Assembly: GCA_028285305.1 (NCBI GenBank)
Contig: JANQPV010000013.1
Location: 62,001 to 126,000, forward strand
DNA from: Alphaproteobacteria bacterium
GTDB taxonomy: Bacteria > Pseudomonadota > Alphaproteobacteria > SMXP01
Length of the DNA stretch: 64,000 nt
Reading direction: 5' to 3'
The notes beneath the pieces are model-generated. The model was not told the origin of the DNA and ran no database searches. It was given only the letters and a program-made list of their open reading frames with translations. Positions within the stretch are counted from its first letter, which is position 1; each line of letters opens with the position of its first letter. The translations under genes were made by a program, and so were the position numbers. Of the stretch, positions 31,339 through 47,706 are shown piece after piece.

Positions 31339-32679
31339 TTACTTGAGCAATGCGACTGCGTCGCTCTCCCCGAGGCCGCCTTGGCACGACGAGAAGTCGG
31401 CGATCATGTCGATTTCTGTACTTGTAGACAGGGAAACAGTGTCGGCCACAAGCGACGTACAATTGTCGGAGGCAAAGAGGTTAGCAGCGGCATTCGACTC
31501 AAATCGTCCGTTCGGGAAGTAAAGAGATCCGTCTAAGACACTGCTGATACCGCTATTAATCGTATGAGTTAAGCCTTGATTTCGGGCTTCCATGAAAAGA
31601 ATGCCTTCATACGGGCCGCTTTCAGGCGCCGTCACATCAACGCTGCTGTTGGCGTCAAAGTCCAAATAAGCCCCATTGTCGAGAAAGAACGTGACACCCG
31701 TGCCGACGATTCTAGAGCCCCCGTTGAGCACGAACGGCCCACCGTCGATCACATACACGCCGGGAGCAAATCGAACGCTAGAGCCGTTGGTAATCGATAG
31801 CCCATTACAATAGACGTACTCGCCGGCGCCAGCGGTCACATCATAATAGCCGTCCGAATCACCACCACCGTCATCATCGTCATCGCCGCCACCCGTCCAG
31901 TTTTGGGTGAGATTGTTGTAATTTGCGCTTGTTTCATCGCACCCTGAATGGGGCGGCTCGCTCACACCGGAAAAGGGGTCGTCGCGGCAGTCTGAATACG
32001 TTCGGGTTTCAGGATAGATGTCGCTGGTTCCAGCTGTCGTAAACCCGCCCCCGATGCAAACATGACCGGCATCGGTGATTTGAGAGTCCCCGTCCAAATA
32101 GAGCGCTTCCGTATCCGTCGAACGGACATGCAAGGCACAGTCAGCCAGGTCGACATCAGCATTTCCAAGCAGTTGCATGGCCCGCGGAGCATCGGGACTG
32201 GTCGCGATGATACACGGTGGCTCTGACGGCGGTGATGCGATCGCTGAGGCGGAGATCTCAAAATACTCAAAACCGAAAGCGCCCGAAAAGAAAGAGGGGA
32301 CGGCATTGCTGTTGTCACCCGAAAGTTCGGCGGTAACTTCAACGGCATTATACGGCGTCTGGTTGGCCGTAAAGATCTTGGTATCCTTGTCCCACTGGCC
32401 GAAGACAATATTGTCATCTGGAACGACATCGCCAAACTTTGCTGGATCCATGTTGCGCTCAGCATAAAGATTAGCATTGGCGCGCGCCTGAGTAAGGTTC
32501 GGCATAACGCTCGCAGCGGAAAGAGCGGCGGCTTCCGCAGCCGAATGCAGGTAAGACTTTGTGCGGTAGGCGTAGGTAAAGTCGATCGCCAGACCGGCAA
32601 GCCCAATGGTCGTGAAAATGATCCCGGCAACAAGCGGCAGGGCCGTTCCACTTTGATCGGAAAGAAAACGTCTCAACAT
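31339..32679 (-). CDS. TadG-like pilus-assembly/surface protein
   Basis: A 446-residue protein with the TadE/TadG-type N-terminal segment DQSGTALPLVAGIIFTTIGLAGLAIDF, a pseudopilin-like membrane anchor, then a long extracytoplasmic part with many Asn, Ser and Gly residues. It includes a GGGDDDDDGGGDSDG linker at about residues 263-277. The second half is of the DUF2134-like/TadG beta-rich type. It follows a TadE-like gene by eight bases. The rest of a Tad pilus locus (prepilin, CpaF, TadBC) is not in the window, so these two may act with a system elsewhere. Confidence 0.8.
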   Translation of the reverse strand: MLRRFLSDQSGTALPLVAGIIFTTIGLAGLAIDFTYAYRTKSYLHSAAEAAALSAASVMPNLTQARANANLYAERNMDPAKFGDVVPDDNIVFGQWDKDTKIFTANQTPYNAVEVTAELSGDNSNAVPSFFSGAFGFEYFEISASAIASPPSEPPCIIATSPDAPRAMQLLGNADVDLADCALHVRSTDTEALYLDGDSQITDAGHVCIGGGFTTAGTSDIYPETRTYSDCRDDPFSGVSEPPHSGCDETSANYNNLTQNWTGGGDDDDDGGGDSDGYYDVTAGAGEYVYCNGLSITNGSSVRFAPGVYVIDGGPFVLNGGSRIVGTGVTFFLDNGAYLDFDANSSVDVTAPESGPYEGILFMEARNQGLTHTINSGISSVLDGSLYFPNGRFESNAAANLFASDNCTSLVADTVSLSTSTEIDMIADFSSCQGGLGESDAVALLK

Positions 32680-41669: not shown

Positions 41670-43973
41670 CTAGGCCACCCGCTTGCGCACCATGTCGTTA
41701 AAGGCTTGTGTGATACGGTCAAGGTGCGGCCGCGTGTACGGAAAGTTGTCGGCATGATCGTAATTGTGCCGCATGGCCGGATTGAGCTCGAAGATGAAGA
41801 TATTGCCGTCTGGTAAGAGCGTGAAGTCGATACCGAAAAAGTCCAGATCAACAATATCACGCAGCTTAAGAAGGGTGTTATAGGCTCGCGTCCCCAAATA
41901 GGTCACATGGTCTTCCAGATAGGCGCGCTCTTCTTCCTGGGTCCAAGGCGTCTTATCCATGATCGCGTAGCGATCCCCGGAATGGATGGCCCAATCATCA
42001 ACAAATAAATTTGCCACTGGATGATAGTGCCCATCAATGCAAAAGATGCGAGTTTTGTTGTACAGTCCCGGCCCTCGCGGGTGATCGTGATATTGAATGA
42101 TATAGTAGTCAGTGTCAGGAGAAGCCTTCGAAAAGTACTTTATCAGCTGGTCTTCCGACTTGACCCGTTTCACGCTGAGCCCCGTCTGCGAACCAGCAGC
42201 CCGCACGATGAGGGGGTATTCGAACCCAAAGCCAGACACCTGGTCGACGATCGTTTGCGCGTCCCCGCCTTCCCAGCGAATGCGTTCTGTTTGTGGAAAG
42301 ATGACCCCGTCCACACTAGCCAAGCGCTGATAGTTGCGGTCTCGCGTTGTCTGATAAACTTGCCTTGGGTGATTGATAACGGGTCGATCGGAATGACGGT
42401 CGACAAACCGGGCAAGGGAAAGCAGAGACGCTGGCTCCCGGTCCGCGCAGCTAATCGTGTTGAGTATCAACTGAAAGTCGGGCAAGTTCTCGATCTTGTT
42501 GATGTTATCTTCAAATATGTTTGCGATCAGCAGATTATAGTCCCGGTGGTTTAGGAGATGCTGGATGGAGAAATGACCGCCTTGCAAAAGACTAACGAAC
42601 TCCCCCTTCGTATCTCTGATGATCCCGTACGTTGCGCTTTGGAAACCCCGCATACGGAGGATTGTTTGCCTATCCTTGCGAGATTTGTTCCATCGCTCAA
42701 AGGGGTGTTTACGAACGACATCACCCAGGATGGCGCGCGCTTGTTTCATGTCGCCGTCTTCGCGGTAGATACTCGATAAGGACAATCCCGCATAATAGTT
42801 GTCGGGATCCAATTGCAGGCATTTCTGGTACGCGGATTTCGCCTCATCGAATCGACCATTCGTCAGAAGCAAATCTCCAAGGAGCTCAAACGTGAAAGCG
42901 TTAGACGGGTCAACTTCACAGGCCCGGGTAAAGCTCGCAACTGCGTCATCAATCCGGCCTGCCTTTTCATGAAGCTTGGCAAGCACAACGTGAGCTTCGC
43001 CGTCTCGGGGGCTGCCCGCCAAATAATTGGTGCAGATCAGAATTGCATCGTCGATCCGGCCGCTTTTCGCTAGCGACCGAACGAGCTTATGGTCAAGCGT
43101 GTCGCTTGCCGTTTGCGAACTGTCTTTTGTCGTGGCCTCCTGACTGTCGTTCTCGTTCGCGGCAGTCATTTGGGTTGACGTCTTAAGGCCCGGCGCCCTC
43201 AGGCGCACTCGGTGGAGCAACCGCTCACTATCCTTGGAAAAACCGCTTCGTCCGTGCAAGACTTTTGTGTTGTTCATAAACAAGACCTCGCCCGAGGCCA
43301 AAGAAAACCGTTGCCCTAAGTCCGGGCTGTTTAGAACCATGTCTAAACGAGACAGAGCATCTCGATGCCGCGCGGACAGGGACGAGCCGCTCTCATCAAT
43401 CGAGCGTTGAAGTTGAGCGTCGTAATACCGAATGGACGGAGAGGGGCCTTCCCCATTTAGAACGGCATGATGGCGATCCCCAAAAGCAAAGACCGGTTCC
43501 CGCAAGGCGTCAAATGCGTCTTTGTCGAGATTTCGCATGATATCGTCGAGCGGCACCATCGACGTTTCGCCTCCGGCGGTGTCGGCAACGAGGCAATGAA
43601 ATGCCACCAGTTCATGCGGCTCCGTCATATAGGATGAGTCCGTATGGGGAGAAAGGGCCTTATGCGTACGGCTGTACCGGGTAACCGAGTCTTCGGCGTT
43701 CGCTTGATCTTTATCAATTCGTACCCGGGTGAACGAAACTTTCTTCTGAGAAGGGGGTAATGTGTCTTTGGAAACGCCGAATTCCGCAACGCCCTTCGCA
43801 AGTTCCAAAAACAAGTCTTGATCCTGAGGGGAAGTACCCAAATGGACGACGCAGTAATAGGGATAGTAAGTCAAAGCTTGAACAATACGCCCGATTTCGG
43901 TCGCATCTTTCGAAACAGTGCGGTGTTTTCCCCCACTATGGAGTTTTGACTGCGGCCCTTTTATTTCGTTCAT
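41670..43973 (-). CDS. TauD-like dioxygenase / TPR / ATP-grasp fusion, candidate peptide-modifying enzyme
   Basis: A 767-residue protein of three parts. Residues about 30-265 are a TauD/TfdA-like Fe(II)/2-oxoglutarate dioxygenase: metal ligands His110-x-Asp112 (SPHTDSS) and His240 (KVLHGRSGF), 2-oxoglutarate Arg near 251-255. Residues about 295-425 are three to four TPRs (AHVVLAKLHEKAGRIDDAVASF...). Residues about 440-767 are an ATP-grasp ligase: YPLIVRAAGSQTG lid, FFGIDFTLLPDG and FIFELNPAMRHN with the metal Glu and Asn. It lies 28 bases after the hlyD-type gene. The pairing of hydroxylase and ligase in one chain, next to an Asp-rich peptide and an exporter, suggests peptide tailoring. The reaction is inferred. 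Confidence 0.8.
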   Translation of the reverse strand: MNEIKGPQSKLHSGGKHRTVSKDATEIGRIVQALTYYPYYCVVHLGTSPQDQDLFLELAKGVAEFGVSKDTLPPSQKKVSFTRVRIDKDQANAEDSVTRYSRTHKALSPHTDSSYMTEPHELVAFHCLVADTAGGETSMVPLDDIMRNLDKDAFDALREPVFAFGDRHHAVLNGEGPSPSIRYYDAQLQRSIDESGSSLSARHRDALSRLDMVLNSPDLGQRFSLASGEVLFMNNTKVLHGRSGFSKDSERLLHRVRLRAPGLKTSTQMTAANENDSQEATTKDSSQTASDTLDHKLVRSLAKSGRIDDAILICTNYLAGSPRDGEAHVVLAKLHEKAGRIDDAVASFTRACEVDPSNAFTFELLGDLLLTNGRFDEAKSAYQKCLQLDPDNYYAGLSLSSIYREDGDMKQARAILGDVVRKHPFERWNKSRKDRQTILRMRGFQSATYGIIRDTKGEFVSLLQGGHFSIQHLLNHRDYNLLIANIFEDNINKIENLPDFQLILNTISCADREPASLLSLARFVDRHSDRPVINHPRQVYQTTRDRNYQRLASVDGVIFPQTERIRWEGGDAQTIVDQVSGFGFEYPLIVRAAGSQTGLSVKRVKSEDQLIKYFSKASPDTDYYIIQYHDHPRGPGLYNKTRIFCIDGHYHPVANLFVDDWAIHSGDRYAIMDKTPWTQEEERAYLEDHVTYLGTRAYNTLLKLRDIVDLDFFGIDFTLLPDGNIFIFELNPAMRHNYDHADNFPYTRPHLDRITQAFNDMVRKRVA

Positions 43974-44001
43974 CTGCCGTCACCCGTTATTTCAGCCGCA
44001 C

Positions 44002-45555
44002 TCAGCTTTCCCGCATCGCCTGGCGCAAAGCGTTCGAGAGCGGTGCGACGATGTAATCGAGAACCGTGCGTTCCCCGGTTAACACCATGACCGAAACTTG
44101 CATGCCCGGATGGACGTCGAGTCCCGCAACTTCCCGGACCTGGGAGTCGTCAAAAGCGATCTTTGCCAGGAAATAGTCCTTCATTGTGGTCGGATCCGTC
44201 ACTTTGTCTGCCGAAACGTTTATGACCTCACCCATGATGGGAGCGGTGGGCCGTGAGCCCGTCGCCGAAAACTTGAGCTCGGCCGTCATGCCGACTTTCA
44301 CCACGTCGCGGTCTTTGGGTTCCAATTTCGCATCAATGATGATCTGTGTACCCTGCGGTACGAGTTCGAGAACCTTTTGTCCCGCCATGACGACACCGCC
44401 CACGGTGTTCACTTGCAATTGATGCACCACACCGGAGCTGGGCGCATACATGGCGCTGCGCTTGAGGACGCTGTGAGCGGTGGTGATTTGACTGTCAAGC
44501 GTGTCGATCTTCTCAAGAACCGTTGTGAACTCGGTCGCCGCCAGCGCTTTGCGTGCCGAAGCCTGCCGGTCGAGTTCGGCGGAAAGCTCAGTCACGGTCG
44601 CCTGAGCCATGCCGATTTCGGCGCGCGCTTCGGCGATGCTTCCTTCGAGACGCGCTTCGTCACGCCACATTGAGAGGATGCGGCCCCTCTGTATGAGGCC
44701 CTTCTCGACAAGGGGAGCGAGGGAGTCCATTTCTTCACGAAGAAGGTGCAGCTCTTTGGCCTGCGCCTCTGCTCGCGCCTTCAAGCCTTCGGCCTTATAC
44801 TTGAACTGGTCAATCTTGGCGGATGTCACGCGCAATTGATCTTTGAACGCCTGGTGCTTTGCTTCAAACAGAGCGATATGTTCGATCACGGCCTGCCGCG
44901 CCCGTTCCTCGTAGGTAAACATATCAACGAGAGTTAAAACCGGCGCCGGTTCACCCGGTTCCGGATCAGTGTCCAATTGAGCTGCAATATCCCTCTTGAG
45001 CATCTCTATGCTCGGGTGCGACAAATCCACCCCATAAAGAGAAAATTCTGATGTATGTGTGCCGGGATAGAGAATTTCCGAGAGCACGCCCGCCCCTTCG
45101 TAGATCCGCTGTTCAAGTTCCGTATCCGACAGAACGCTCGACCGCTTGGGCAGAATGGATGGGTTCACAGCCGACGTTCGGTAATCGTCTCGCTCCGCAT
45201 AGAGCCGCATGGCCTGTGCGGTGGCTGCGATCCGCTGGCTGACCAAAAGGTCCAAATCAGCCCGTGCCTTCACGTCTTCGAGGATCAAAAGCGTCTCGCC
45301 CCGCTCGACATATGCGCCTTCCGAAACGTGGATCTCGCGAATGATGCCGCCTTCCAAGTGCTGAACGCTTTTGCGCGATCCCTCAACGACCGCAACACCG
45401 GGCGCAATCGCTGCACTCTCAAGGGGGGCGAAAGCAGCCCAGCCCAAAAAGCCGCCGAAAAAGGTCAGGATGATGAGGCCGCCAGCCCAGAAATGGGTAC
45501 TGTTGCCCACAAGATCCTTTTGACGATCGTGCGTGTTGTCCTGCTTCTTAGCCAT
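44002..45555 (-). CDS. type I secretion membrane fusion protein (HlyD family)
   Basis: A 517-residue adaptor with one membrane span (about 22-42; FWAGGLIILTFFGGFLGWAAFAPL), a biotinyl-lipoyl half (VVEGSRKSVQHLEGGIIREIHVSEGAYVERGETLLIL), a long coiled coil (about 190-340) and the closing barrel (APSSGVVHQLQVNTVGGVVMAGQKVLELVP). This is the HlyD/PrtE type that bridges the ABC transporter and an outer-membrane TolC-type channel, which is absent here. ATG 45555 overlaps the ABC stop by eight bases and has GGAAGGAAAG upstream. Confidence 0.9.
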   Translation of the reverse strand: MAKKQDNTHDRQKDLVGNSTHFWAGGLIILTFFGGFLGWAAFAPLESAAIAPGVAVVEGSRKSVQHLEGGIIREIHVSEGAYVERGETLLILEDVKARADLDLLVSQRIAATAQAMRLYAERDDYRTSAVNPSILPKRSSVLSDTELEQRIYEGAGVLSEILYPGTHTSEFSLYGVDLSHPSIEMLKRDIAAQLDTDPEPGEPAPVLTLVDMFTYEERARQAVIEHIALFEAKHQAFKDQLRVTSAKIDQFKYKAEGLKARAEAQAKELHLLREEMDSLAPLVEKGLIQRGRILSMWRDEARLEGSIAEARAEIGMAQATVTELSAELDRQASARKALAATEFTTVLEKIDTLDSQITTAHSVLKRSAMYAPSSGVVHQLQVNTVGGVVMAGQKVLELVPQGTQIIIDAKLEPKDRDVVKVGMTAELKFSATGSRPTAPIMGEVINVSADKVTDPTTMKDYFLAKIAFDDSQVREVAGLDVHPGMQVSVMVLTGERTVLDYIVAPLSNALRQAMRES

Positions 45556-47281
45556 TGCTCTTTCCTTCCACAACGCGAAGTTTGGAGTCGTTCGCCACTT
45601 CTGAAACCGGCTCGTCCTTCACCTCTGGCTTCACCAGGTCCAGGCGGCCGTTCCGCAATTCGTAGAGACGGTCCACGGACTCGATCGTGCTTGGATCGTG
45701 AGAAATAAGCACCACCATGGAACCCTTTTCTTTAAGTTTGCGTATCGTTCGCTGAATGGCCTTGCGGCCGTCCACGTCAAGACTTGCGTCCGGTTCGTCC
45801 AAGACCACCAGCTTTGGCGTCTCATAAACAGCCCGCGCAAGCCCGACTCGCTGTCTTTGGCCGCCCGAAAGAATCGAGCCGCCGTCGCCGATCTCCGTAT
45901 CGTATCGATTGGGCATCTCAGAGATCATGGAGTGGATGCCCACCAACCGCGCCGCCTCTATCACGGAGTCAAGGTCCCCTTTGGTCATGCGGGCGATGTT
46001 CTCTCGGATCGTGCCATCGAACAATTCGACCGATTGAGGAAGATAGCCGATATGGGGCCCCAAGAGGGTCCGGTCCGGATGAGCCACGTCGACACCCGCA
46101 AATGTCACTTTGCCGCTCGACGGCGCAAGATTGCCGATAATGATACGCGCTAAGGTCGACTTGCCCGCAGCGGTCGGCCCCATAATGCCGACGGCGTCAC
46201 CGGGGTGCACATCGAGATTGAGGCCTCGCAAGAGCCCTTTGTCCCGACCCGGAATAAAGTAAGTGACACCGCGCAGTTTCAGCCCTTTGCGCGCGTCAAA
46301 AATCGGAGGGGTTTTCGGAACATCTGGAATGCGCGACAAATAGTCTTCAAGCTTTTGCTTACCTTCGCGGGCATTCACGACGGCCTTCCAAGAGGATATG
46401 CCTCGTTCCATGGGGCTGGTCGCACGCCGGAACAACAACATGCTGGCAATGATCGCACCAGCCGAGAGTTGATTCATTAAGATGAGGCTCGCAGCCAGCC
46501 CAAGCATGACGATTTGCAACGTCATCCGCGTGAATTGCGTGATGGCAGACATCAAGATTGCACGCCGCGCCACCGCGTTCTCGGCGTCGGCAGCAGTACC
46601 GAATTCTTTGGACCAGCGTTTTGCAATCGTCTCCCGCATTCCCATGGCTTCGATCACATCCGCGTTGCGCGCGGAAGCAGCGGTCAGGTCGGCGGATCGG
46701 GAAGAAGCATCTTGTGATTCGTTGACCACGCCGTGCGTCGCCCATTCATTGACCGCACCGATTGCGAGCAAGAGCACAGCGCCGAAGATGGCCAAACCGC
46801 CCAACAAGGGATGCATGATCCACAAAGCGATAATAAAAAGAGGAGTCCAGGGAATATCGAACAAAGGAACGATATTAGGCCCGCCGACAAAGTCTCGAAC
46901 AGCGTGGAGATAGCGGATCCCCCGTTGCGAAGGGCTTTGGCTCCGCTTTTTGGCGCGCACCACTGTCGCCCGAAACACATCGGCGCCCACGCGGCGGTCA
47001 ACCCAATTGCCGACCTTGGCCAGCATGAAACCCCGTAACGCTTCGAGGCCCGCATACGCAAAAATAGCCGTCAGTGCAATGACGGTCAAAACGATGAGCG
47101 TTTGTTCGCTCCGGCTTGGGATAACCCGGTCATATATTTGCAGAAGATAAAGAGGCACTGCAAAAGACAAAAGATTGATGAAGAAGCTAAATGCCGCAAC
47201 CGTGTAGAGGCTGGACTTACATTTCGTCAGCGCATCTTGCAGTGCCGATTTTGTCGGATTGTCGATCGAACTACCAGCCAT
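45548..47281 (-). CDS. type I secretion ABC transporter (PrtD-like)
   Basis: A 577-residue half-transporter: six membrane helices (about 25-300) followed by an ATPase with Walker A GPTAAGKST (about 365), signature LSGGQRQRVGLARA (about 473) and Walker B LVVLDEPDASLD (about 493). There is no N-terminal C39 peptidase domain, so the cargo is not expected to be cut at a double-glycine leader; PrtD-type exporters read a C-terminal signal. It is encoded 95 bases after the Asp-repeat peptide gene on the same strand. Confidence 0.92.
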   Translation of the reverse strand: MAGSSIDNPTKSALQDALTKCKSSLYTVAAFSFFINLLSFAVPLYLLQIYDRVIPSRSEQTLIVLTVIALTAIFAYAGLEALRGFMLAKVGNWVDRRVGADVFRATVVRAKKRSQSPSQRGIRYLHAVRDFVGGPNIVPLFDIPWTPLFIIALWIMHPLLGGLAIFGAVLLLAIGAVNEWATHGVVNESQDASSRSADLTAASARNADVIEAMGMRETIAKRWSKEFGTAADAENAVARRAILMSAITQFTRMTLQIVMLGLAASLILMNQLSAGAIIASMLLFRRATSPMERGISSWKAVVNAREGKQKLEDYLSRIPDVPKTPPIFDARKGLKLRGVTYFIPGRDKGLLRGLNLDVHPGDAVGIMGPTAAGKSTLARIIIGNLAPSSGKVTFAGVDVAHPDRTLLGPHIGYLPQSVELFDGTIRENIARMTKGDLDSVIEAARLVGIHSMISEMPNRYDTEIGDGGSILSGGQRQRVGLARAVYETPKLVVLDEPDASLDVDGRKAIQRTIRKLKEKGSMVVLISHDPSTIESVDRLYELRNGRLDLVKPEVKDEPVSEVANDSKLRVVEGKSNG

Positions 47282-47376
47282 AAGACCAGTGTATCGCAAC
47301 TGGAAACCAACAAAAAGGGAATGCCGGGGCGGAACGCCCCGACATTAACCTCATATATTGGCGTCGCCGTTAGCGA

Positions 47377-47706
47377 TCAATCGCCGCCGTCGTCGTCGTC
47401 GTCGCCGCCACGTTTCCAACCGTAGCCGCCTCTGCCGCCGTCGTCGTCATCGTCGCCGCCTTTCTTGCCGCGACCGCCGTCATCGTCGTCATCGCCGCCT
47501 TTCTTGCCGCGACCGCCGTCATCGTCGTCGTCGCCGCCTTTTCTGCCGCGACCGCCGTCATCATCGTCGTCGCCGCCTTTTCTGCCGCGACCACCGTCAT
47601 CGTCGTCGTCGCCGCCGGATCTGTACCAGTACGACTTCGAATCGTCATCATCGTCGTCGTCACCGGAACCTTTGCCGTAATAGTCCCAATACGCATTTCT
47701 AGCCAT
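47377..47706 (-). CDS. Asp-rich repeat peptide, candidate secreted precursor
   Basis: A 109-residue protein. Residues 1-32 are aromatic-rich (MARNAYWDYYGKGSG, seven Asp, SKSYWYRSGG). Residues 33-84 are four exact-length 13-residue units (D5-GGRG-R/K-KGG), and residues 85-109 are two variant units ending in GGDDDDDGGD. There is no signal peptide and no cysteine. It has GGGAGA about eight bases before the ATG and is first in line with the ABC, HlyD and dioxygenase/ATP-grasp genes. The repeats are exact in length while codons vary, which favours selection on the protein. Metal binding is likely by composition; modification is inferred. Confidence 0.75.
   Translation of the reverse strand: MARNAYWDYYGKGSGDDDDDDDSKSYWYRSGGDDDDDGGRGRKGGDDDDDGGRGRKGGDDDDDGGRGKKGGDDDDDGGRGKKGGDDDDDGGRGGYGWKRGGDDDDDGGD
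47455..47610 (-). repeat. four 39-base coding repeats
   Basis: Each unit encodes Asp5-Gly-Gly-Arg-Gly-(Arg/Lys)-Lys-Gly-Gly. Units one and two have Arg, three and four Lys at the tenth position. The Asp codons mix GAC and GAT between units. This is a coding repeat and not a CRISPR array: there are no unique spacers. Confidence 0.9.

Follow-up and report, generated by a model that had tools for sequence, protein, structure and literature searches.

RimK attaches glutamate at the C-terminal end of ribosomal S6, and the C-terminal glutamate of LysW receives an amino acid from LysX or ArgX; both S6 and LysW end in acidic residues. In graspetides, an ATP-grasp ligase is joined with Asp/Glu-bearing cores and often with an exporter and HlyD (PMC8939145). 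The graspetide exporters often, not universally, carry a C39 (double-glycine) peptidase domain. The aspartyl β-hydroxylase AspH combines TPR with a 2-oxoglutarate (2OG) oxygenase (PMC6817910), and ATP-grasp modifiers of the CDC123 type have been described, without the combination considered here (PMC4431377). Here we analyze a locus in a 64,000-nucleotide stretch of an Alphaproteobacteria bacterium (contig JANQPV010000013.1, positions 62,001 to 126,000), referred to below as the window. The locus encodes a fused TauD-like 2OG oxygenase/TPR/RimK-like ATP-grasp enzyme behind the genes of a type I secretion system (T1SS) exporter and of an Asp-repeat peptide. We propose, with a probability of about 0.5, that this fusion hydroxylates Asp-rich secretory proteins in the cytoplasm and ligates an amino acid or another amine to them before export.

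An earlier note on this DNA had read four minus-strand genes here, encoding the Asp-repeat peptide, a PrtD exporter, a HlyD adaptor and the TauD-TPR-ATP-grasp fusion, and all four are found where it had placed them (Table 1). Its spacing is likewise confirmed: the PrtD and HlyD genes overlap by 8 bases, HlyD starting at ATG 45555, and 28 bases separate the HlyD gene from that of the fusion. As that note had also supposed, the literature searched on ATP-grasp enzymes gave no description of an oxygenase-TPR-ligase combined with an Asp peptide and an exporter.

The fusion matches PF02668 (TauD) with an E-value of 1.8e-19, and its TPRs are also matched. An AlphaFold2 model built on a 37-row alignment has a mean predicted local distance difference test (pLDDT) score of 89.3 for the whole fusion, and the ATP-grasp domain modelled alone reaches 93.9. 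Among solved folds, the oxygenase domain is closest to BBOX1 (Z 22.2, 224 residues aligned, root-mean-square deviation (rmsd) 2.6), TmpA (21.3) and AsnO (20.5), with VioC also among its best fold kin. It has the fold, the HxD...H facial triad and the 2OG arginine (R257) of the TauD/BBOX enzymes, and the rows that bear TauD conserve H110, D112, H240 and R255/R257. The fusion resembles AspH in pairing TPR with a 2OG oxygenase and in having Asp residues of extracellular proteins as its proposed targets. However, its oxygenase is of the TauD/BBOX type, with no AspH-type (Asp_Arg_Hydrox) model among the Pfam matches listed; its ligase domain has no AspH counterpart, and the protein is bacterial, without an endoplasmic reticulum signal.

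The nearest folds to the ATP-grasp domain are RimK (Z 19.9, 267 residues aligned, rmsd 4.1) and ArgX/LysX (19.5), followed by glutathione synthetase (GshB, 17.5) and the Ddl/D-Ala ligases (about 16.4-16.5). Each of the 31 rows compared has D716, E729, N731, R591 and R642. By these residues and those of the oxygenase, both catalytic domains of the fusion have intact active sites. The RimK/LysX/ArgX likeness thus lies in the fold and in conserved Mg/ATP residues; the fusion is only about 12% identical to these ligases, is joined to TPR and a 2OG oxygenase, and belongs to a family whose partners are secreted Asp-rich proteins and not S6 or LysW.

Table 1. Features of the window locus and of related loci. 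Coordinates are those of the window unless a locus (L number) is given.
Feature	Coordinates	Strand	Basis or remark
Fusion enzyme, TauD-like 2OG oxygenase/TPR/RimK-like ATP-grasp, 767 aa	41670..43973	-	Pfam and structure prediction
TauD-like domain, residues about 20-265	43179..43916	-	Fold; conserved HxD H110/D112, distal H240, R255/R257
TPR domain, residues about 290-427	42693..43106	-	Pfam and structure prediction
ATP-grasp domain, residues 436-767	41673..42668	-	Structure prediction, conserved residues
HlyD-type periplasmic adaptor, about 517 aa	44002..45555	-	TIGR01843
PrtD-type T1SS ABC permease/ATPase, no C39 peptidase domain	45548..47281	-	TIGR01842
Terminator-like hairpin, 12-pair GC-rich stem then T-run CCCTTTTTGT	47320..47346	-	Between peptide and PrtD genes
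Asp/Gly repeat peptide, 109 aa, candidate substrate	47377..47706	-	ORF and repeat analysis
Tad/TadG-like pilus protein	31339-32679	-	PF13400, PF09977
Flp/Fap pilin	L188:11124-11402		Adjoins TPR-ATP-grasp gene
Acetolactate synthase large subunit	L192:1502-3298, L185:7654-9447		Directly upstream of TPR-ATP-grasp
HprK-related kinase	L176:12190-13047, L170:7855-9051		Matches TIGR04352, strongly in L176 and weakly in L170
Membrane protein, about 220 aa	L165:5508-6155, L170:6816-7532, L176:8038-8712		Beside enzyme

When 84,980 species genomes were scanned with the alignment as query, 49 loci were found; a scan of the same collection with the single sequence gave no matches. No family members were found in viral contigs, and plasmids held distant TPR/RimK-like relatives only (25-29% identity). 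TPR-ATP-grasp proteins occur in 20 of 385 sampled alphaproteobacterial genomes, and the window genome itself carries, at a distance of about 78 kb, a fusion paralogue of 40% identity. In a tree built from 44 ATP-grasp domains, the TauD-bearing members group in a single clade of 21 rows (support 97/92), whose sister clade is without TauD. TauD is missing from three rows of this clade (L162, L073 and L181, the last two being the same record), whose contigs start partway through the ATP-grasp gene. Nearest to the window fusion are cyanobacterial fusions from Xenococcaceae, Mastigocoleus, Nostocaceae and Richelia, at 50-54% identity. TauD is fused to TPR-ATP-grasp in the cyanobacteria and in two gammaproteobacteria (L165, L176), as in the window, and the two are separate adjacent genes in the alphaproteobacterial relatives examined (L167, L169, L170, L172). 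The fusion thus belongs to a genuine enzyme family, with 49 loci by this one scan.

Members of this family repeatedly have as a neighbour an extracellular protein with a tract that is rich in Asp and usually flanked by Gly. In the Nostocaceae metagenome-assembled genome (L155), a 99-residue peptide, IEGGWGDDDDDDGGG...RRGDDEGD, which also reads ...SQIEGGWGDDDDDDGGGYY...GGGRRGDDEGD, is encoded on the same strand 221 bp upstream of the fusion; its homologue in Calothrix rhizosoleniae, also upstream of the fusion, has two frame breaks and ends in GRGDDDD. The neighbouring RTX proteins of Mastigocoleus (L159 and L160) carry SSGDDDDDD and SGGDDDDDGGS, and a giant RTX-type protein in Rhodospirillales (L189) carries GDDDDDS and GGGDDDDDDS. 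A TadE pseudopilin of Glycocaulis profundi (L167), encoded 2.4 kb from the enzyme, contains AGDDDDDGGKGKKGKGQGKG, with the Asp tract AGDDDDDGGKGKKGK. In L187, the gene of a 77-residue lipoprotein-like protein with a C-terminal HDDDDDD overlaps the ATP-grasp gene stop, and in Alteromonadaceae (L176) a Tat-signal protein contains GDDDNDDND and ends in DDDSD. All five short Asp-rich partners have a C-terminal Asp (GGD in the window, EGD in L155, DDDD in Calothrix, DDDDDD in L187 and DSD in L176), which fits a RimK/LysX-like ligase, S6 and LysW being acidic at the C-terminus as well. RTX proteins, to which just 36 of the 96 genomes sampled have strong matches, directly adjoin the enzyme gene in L169 (cadherin/FG-GAP/RTX), L180, L186, L189 and L190; the Rhodospirillales loci among these (L180, L186, L189, L190) probably represent one inherited locus.

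To count these neighbours, open reading frames (ORFs) at most 6 kb from the enzyme were considered, the discovery locus was left out, and L160/L161 and L190/L191 were each counted once. Six independent loci have runs of at least five Asp, where 0.68 would be expected (P about 8e-5); the expectation was taken from the GAYx5 density of the very genomes concerned, 80 tracts in 60.4 Mb by hand count over the nine that are fully listed. Gly-flanked Asp tracts are found at 3 loci against 0.017 expected, assuming about 3 Mb per genome. Given the GAYx5 background count, chance neighbours are unlikely to be the sole explanation, although the test is post hoc and some loci are orthologous. At the distant TPR-ATP-grasp loci (L074-L091), Asp tracts are not clearly associated with the enzyme; one ORF in L085 is doubtful.

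The candidate substrate in the window has 39 D, 34 G, 9 K, 10 R and 4 S among its 109 residues. Its repeat pattern is (GGDDDDDGGRGKK)n in the layout MARNAYWDYYGKGSGD7...(GGDDDDDGGRG[RK]K)n...GGDDDDDGGD, and its gene contains a 39-bp tandem repeat of 4.7 copies with 93% match. Among the five repeat units, 40 of the 58 base differences lie at third codon positions, and 28 codon differences are synonymous against 12 non-synonymous, which supports translation of the minus frame. The GD5G pattern is rare, being held by 27 of the 385 alphaproteobacterial genomes, and the window repeat peptide does not recur in any other of these 27.

The exporter matches TIGR01842 with 561.6 bits against a cut-off of 510; its likely start is the ATG at 47281, the listed ORF (583 aa) opening at TTG 47299, and no Peptidase_C39 domain is matched in it among Pfam and NCBIfam models. 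The adaptor matches TIGR01843 with 325.7 bits. Another contig of the same genome carries the gene of a TolC-type T1SS channel (312.9 bits), so that the genome holds a full T1SS set of ABC exporter, HlyD adaptor and TolC channel. This arrangement resembles type I secretion, as do the RTX proteins and the LapG-like protease near relatives of the enzyme; it differs in that the window peptide lacks RTX nonapeptides and that a pump beside the enzyme has been seen in the window genome only.

In the proposed mechanism, the TPR domain would bind the acidic, unfolded secretory substrate. The ATP-grasp domain would activate an Asp carboxylate, that of a D5-tract side chain and/or that of the C-terminal Asp, as an acyl phosphate, to which an amino acid or a different amine would then be ligated. 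The BBOX/AsnO-like 2OG oxygenase domain would hydroxylate Asp residues or the attached amine. In the window, the substrate would be the 109-residue peptide; the neighbouring PrtD/HlyD pump, together with the TolC encoded elsewhere, would then export it in unfolded form.

Several observations weigh against this proposal. The kinship of the ATP-grasp domain to RimK/LysX is structural only, as judged from the model, because sequence similarity is marginal: the RimK match of 14.3 bits is under the Pfam cut-off of 21, and the best PDB sequence match, LysX, has an E-value of 0.016. About half of the TauD-bearing loci (L156-158, L163-166, L170 and L172, some on short contigs) are without an Asp-rich neighbour, neither a T1SS nor an Asp peptide lies near the same-genome paralogue, and the neighbour test, framed after the pattern had been seen, carries limited weight. 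It is gene order alone that points to PrtD/HlyD as the exporter of the window peptide, in which no leader motif is recognised and there is neither a GGxGxD motif nor a Pfam match to indicate RTX. The strong terminator-like hairpin on the minus strand, which the earlier note had not mentioned, parts the peptide gene from the pump genes; the four genes do stand in series in order and strand, as the earlier note had it, but this element interrupts them, which suggests a separate or attenuated peptide transcript. More of the peptide than of the pump may be produced.

Conservation of the locus has a similar bearing. Neither the PrtD/HlyD pair nor the same repeat peptide lies beside any of the relatives examined, and the exact four-gene set is seen in the window genome only. 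HlyD relatives in the 385 genomes reach at most about 40% identity over part of the protein, and the stretches around the best of them hold no Asp peptide, so that the pump alone does not predict the peptide. A genome search of the kind that the earlier note called for thus returned TauD/ATP-grasp fusions whose neighbours lack the window repeat peptide and T1SS, the outcome that the note had itself named as a refutation, here of the narrow version of its reading only. The core of that reading, action of the fusion on a secreted peptide or protein rich in Asp, gains real support from the intact active sites and from relatives that adjoin unrelated Asp-rich extracellular proteins above chance. 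The earlier reading is thus partly supported: as a general statement that an Asp-rich peptide is modified and exported it is stronger than before, and in its specifics it is weaker, cross-linking being less likely than amine addition and the four-gene set not being conserved.

The fusion may instead be a small-molecule enzyme, hydroxylating and ligating free amino acids or amines (e.g. phosphonates) into a metabolite, with the T1SS and the peptide as chance neighbours. BBOX1, TmpA, AsnO and VioC all use small molecules, and the same-genome paralogue has no peptide. In a TauD-less clade of Kordiimonas and its kin (L168, L174, L175, L177, L178, L179, L182, L183), the TPR-ATP-grasp gene stands alongside genes for an aminotransferase, phosphoenolpyruvate (PEP) mutase (341.7 bits) and phosphonopyruvate decarboxylase (412.4 bits), likely a phosphonate pathway. 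An acetolactate synthase large-subunit gene lies directly upstream of TPR-ATP-grasp at two other loci (L192, L185). Such TauD-less kin make small-molecule roles possible in the wider family, which also counts against a protein-modifying fusion. However, the fusion has a TPR domain, ligases of the RimK/LysX type take protein acceptors, Asp-rich and RTX neighbours are enriched, and the fusion gene lies 28 bp from that of HlyD. On balance we regard this explanation as rather unlikely. Under the preferred reading, modification of secreted Asp-rich proteins, the phosphonate genes beside the TauD-less sister clade would make an aminophosphonate one candidate amine, no more.

Graspetide-like cross-linking would have the ATP-grasp domain join Asp side chains to the peptide's own Lys (or Ser/Tyr) as intramolecular amides or esters, with hydroxylation adding nucleophiles and the cross-linked product being exported. 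As in graspetides, an ATP-grasp ligase stands beside genes for an acidic repeat peptide and an exporter, and the D5 blocks of the peptide alternate with R/K-rich linkers. The window set nevertheless lacks the leader motif, the Thr core, its peptide being without any Thr, and the C39 transporter, although acidic blocks and Lys are present, and its oxygenase is fused to the ligase. The alternating Lys pattern is missing from the L187, L176 and RTX partners, and no graspetide model is among the Pfam/NCBIfam matches listed for the window proteins. No graspetide ligase is among the best 50 fold matches listed for the ATP-grasp domain, which excludes no kinship to one. With the domain nearer to RimK/LysX than to any graspetide ligase visible, amine addition is likelier than cross-linking; of the two outcomes that the earlier note had left side by side, a ligated peptide is thus favoured, and cross-linking appears improbable.

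That the peptide is an unmodified poly-Asp/Gly cation-binding T1SS polymer and the fusion acts elsewhere, e.g. on the Tad-like pilus protein 10 kb away with its single TGGGDDDDDGGGDSDG, a GGGDDDDDGGG loop, is very improbable, since the fusion gene lies far from the Tad gene and comes straight after the pump genes, which in turn follow that of the peptide, even if the Glycocaulis TadE and an Flp/Fap pilin with the acidic tail NADSGESDNNSDSDSDADSDSDNNS (L188) lie near other family members.

Returning to modification of secreted Asp-rich proteins, a tentative extension, which we hold as less probable than not, is that the oxygenase-TPR-ligase family represents a new modification class. Its targets would be secreted peptides, RTX proteins and pilus proteins, hydroxylated and aminoacylated at poly-Asp tracts or at a C-terminal Asp, in alphaproteobacteria, gammaproteobacteria and cyanobacteria, and calcium/metal binding and adhesion would be tuned in this way. 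If true, one fused enzyme would modify acidic proteins of the surface and of the secretome post-translationally in a way not yet described, with a natural substrate that is very short and easily tested by mass spectrometry. ATP-grasp ligases, so far tied to ribosomally synthesized and post-translationally modified peptides and to ribosome and lysine-biosynthesis carriers, would then be linked to adhesins, pili and type I secretion, and the enzyme could serve as a tool for decorating poly-Asp tags.

Some further features of the family loci should be mentioned. In L180, L186, L189, L190 and L191, the TPR-ATP-grasp gene is flanked by PAS/HD-GYP and RTX genes, and a LapG-like (BTLCP) protease is encoded nearby in L189; modification of Lap-type biofilm adhesins is possible at these loci. 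The 39-bp Asp arrays of G249 (contig ends L152 and L153) share the repeat period of the window peptide gene; they encode an unrelated protein of SDDDDDGDDDDDG tandem repeats, broken by the contig ends, and were set aside as not homologous. HprK-related kinase genes adjoin TauD/TPR-ATP-grasp at two loci, and an unnamed conserved membrane protein, without a Pfam match, is encoded beside the enzyme in three distant genomes (Table 1). A DUF6817 (PF20680) gene directly adjoins the cyanobacterial fusion in L156, L157 and L159.

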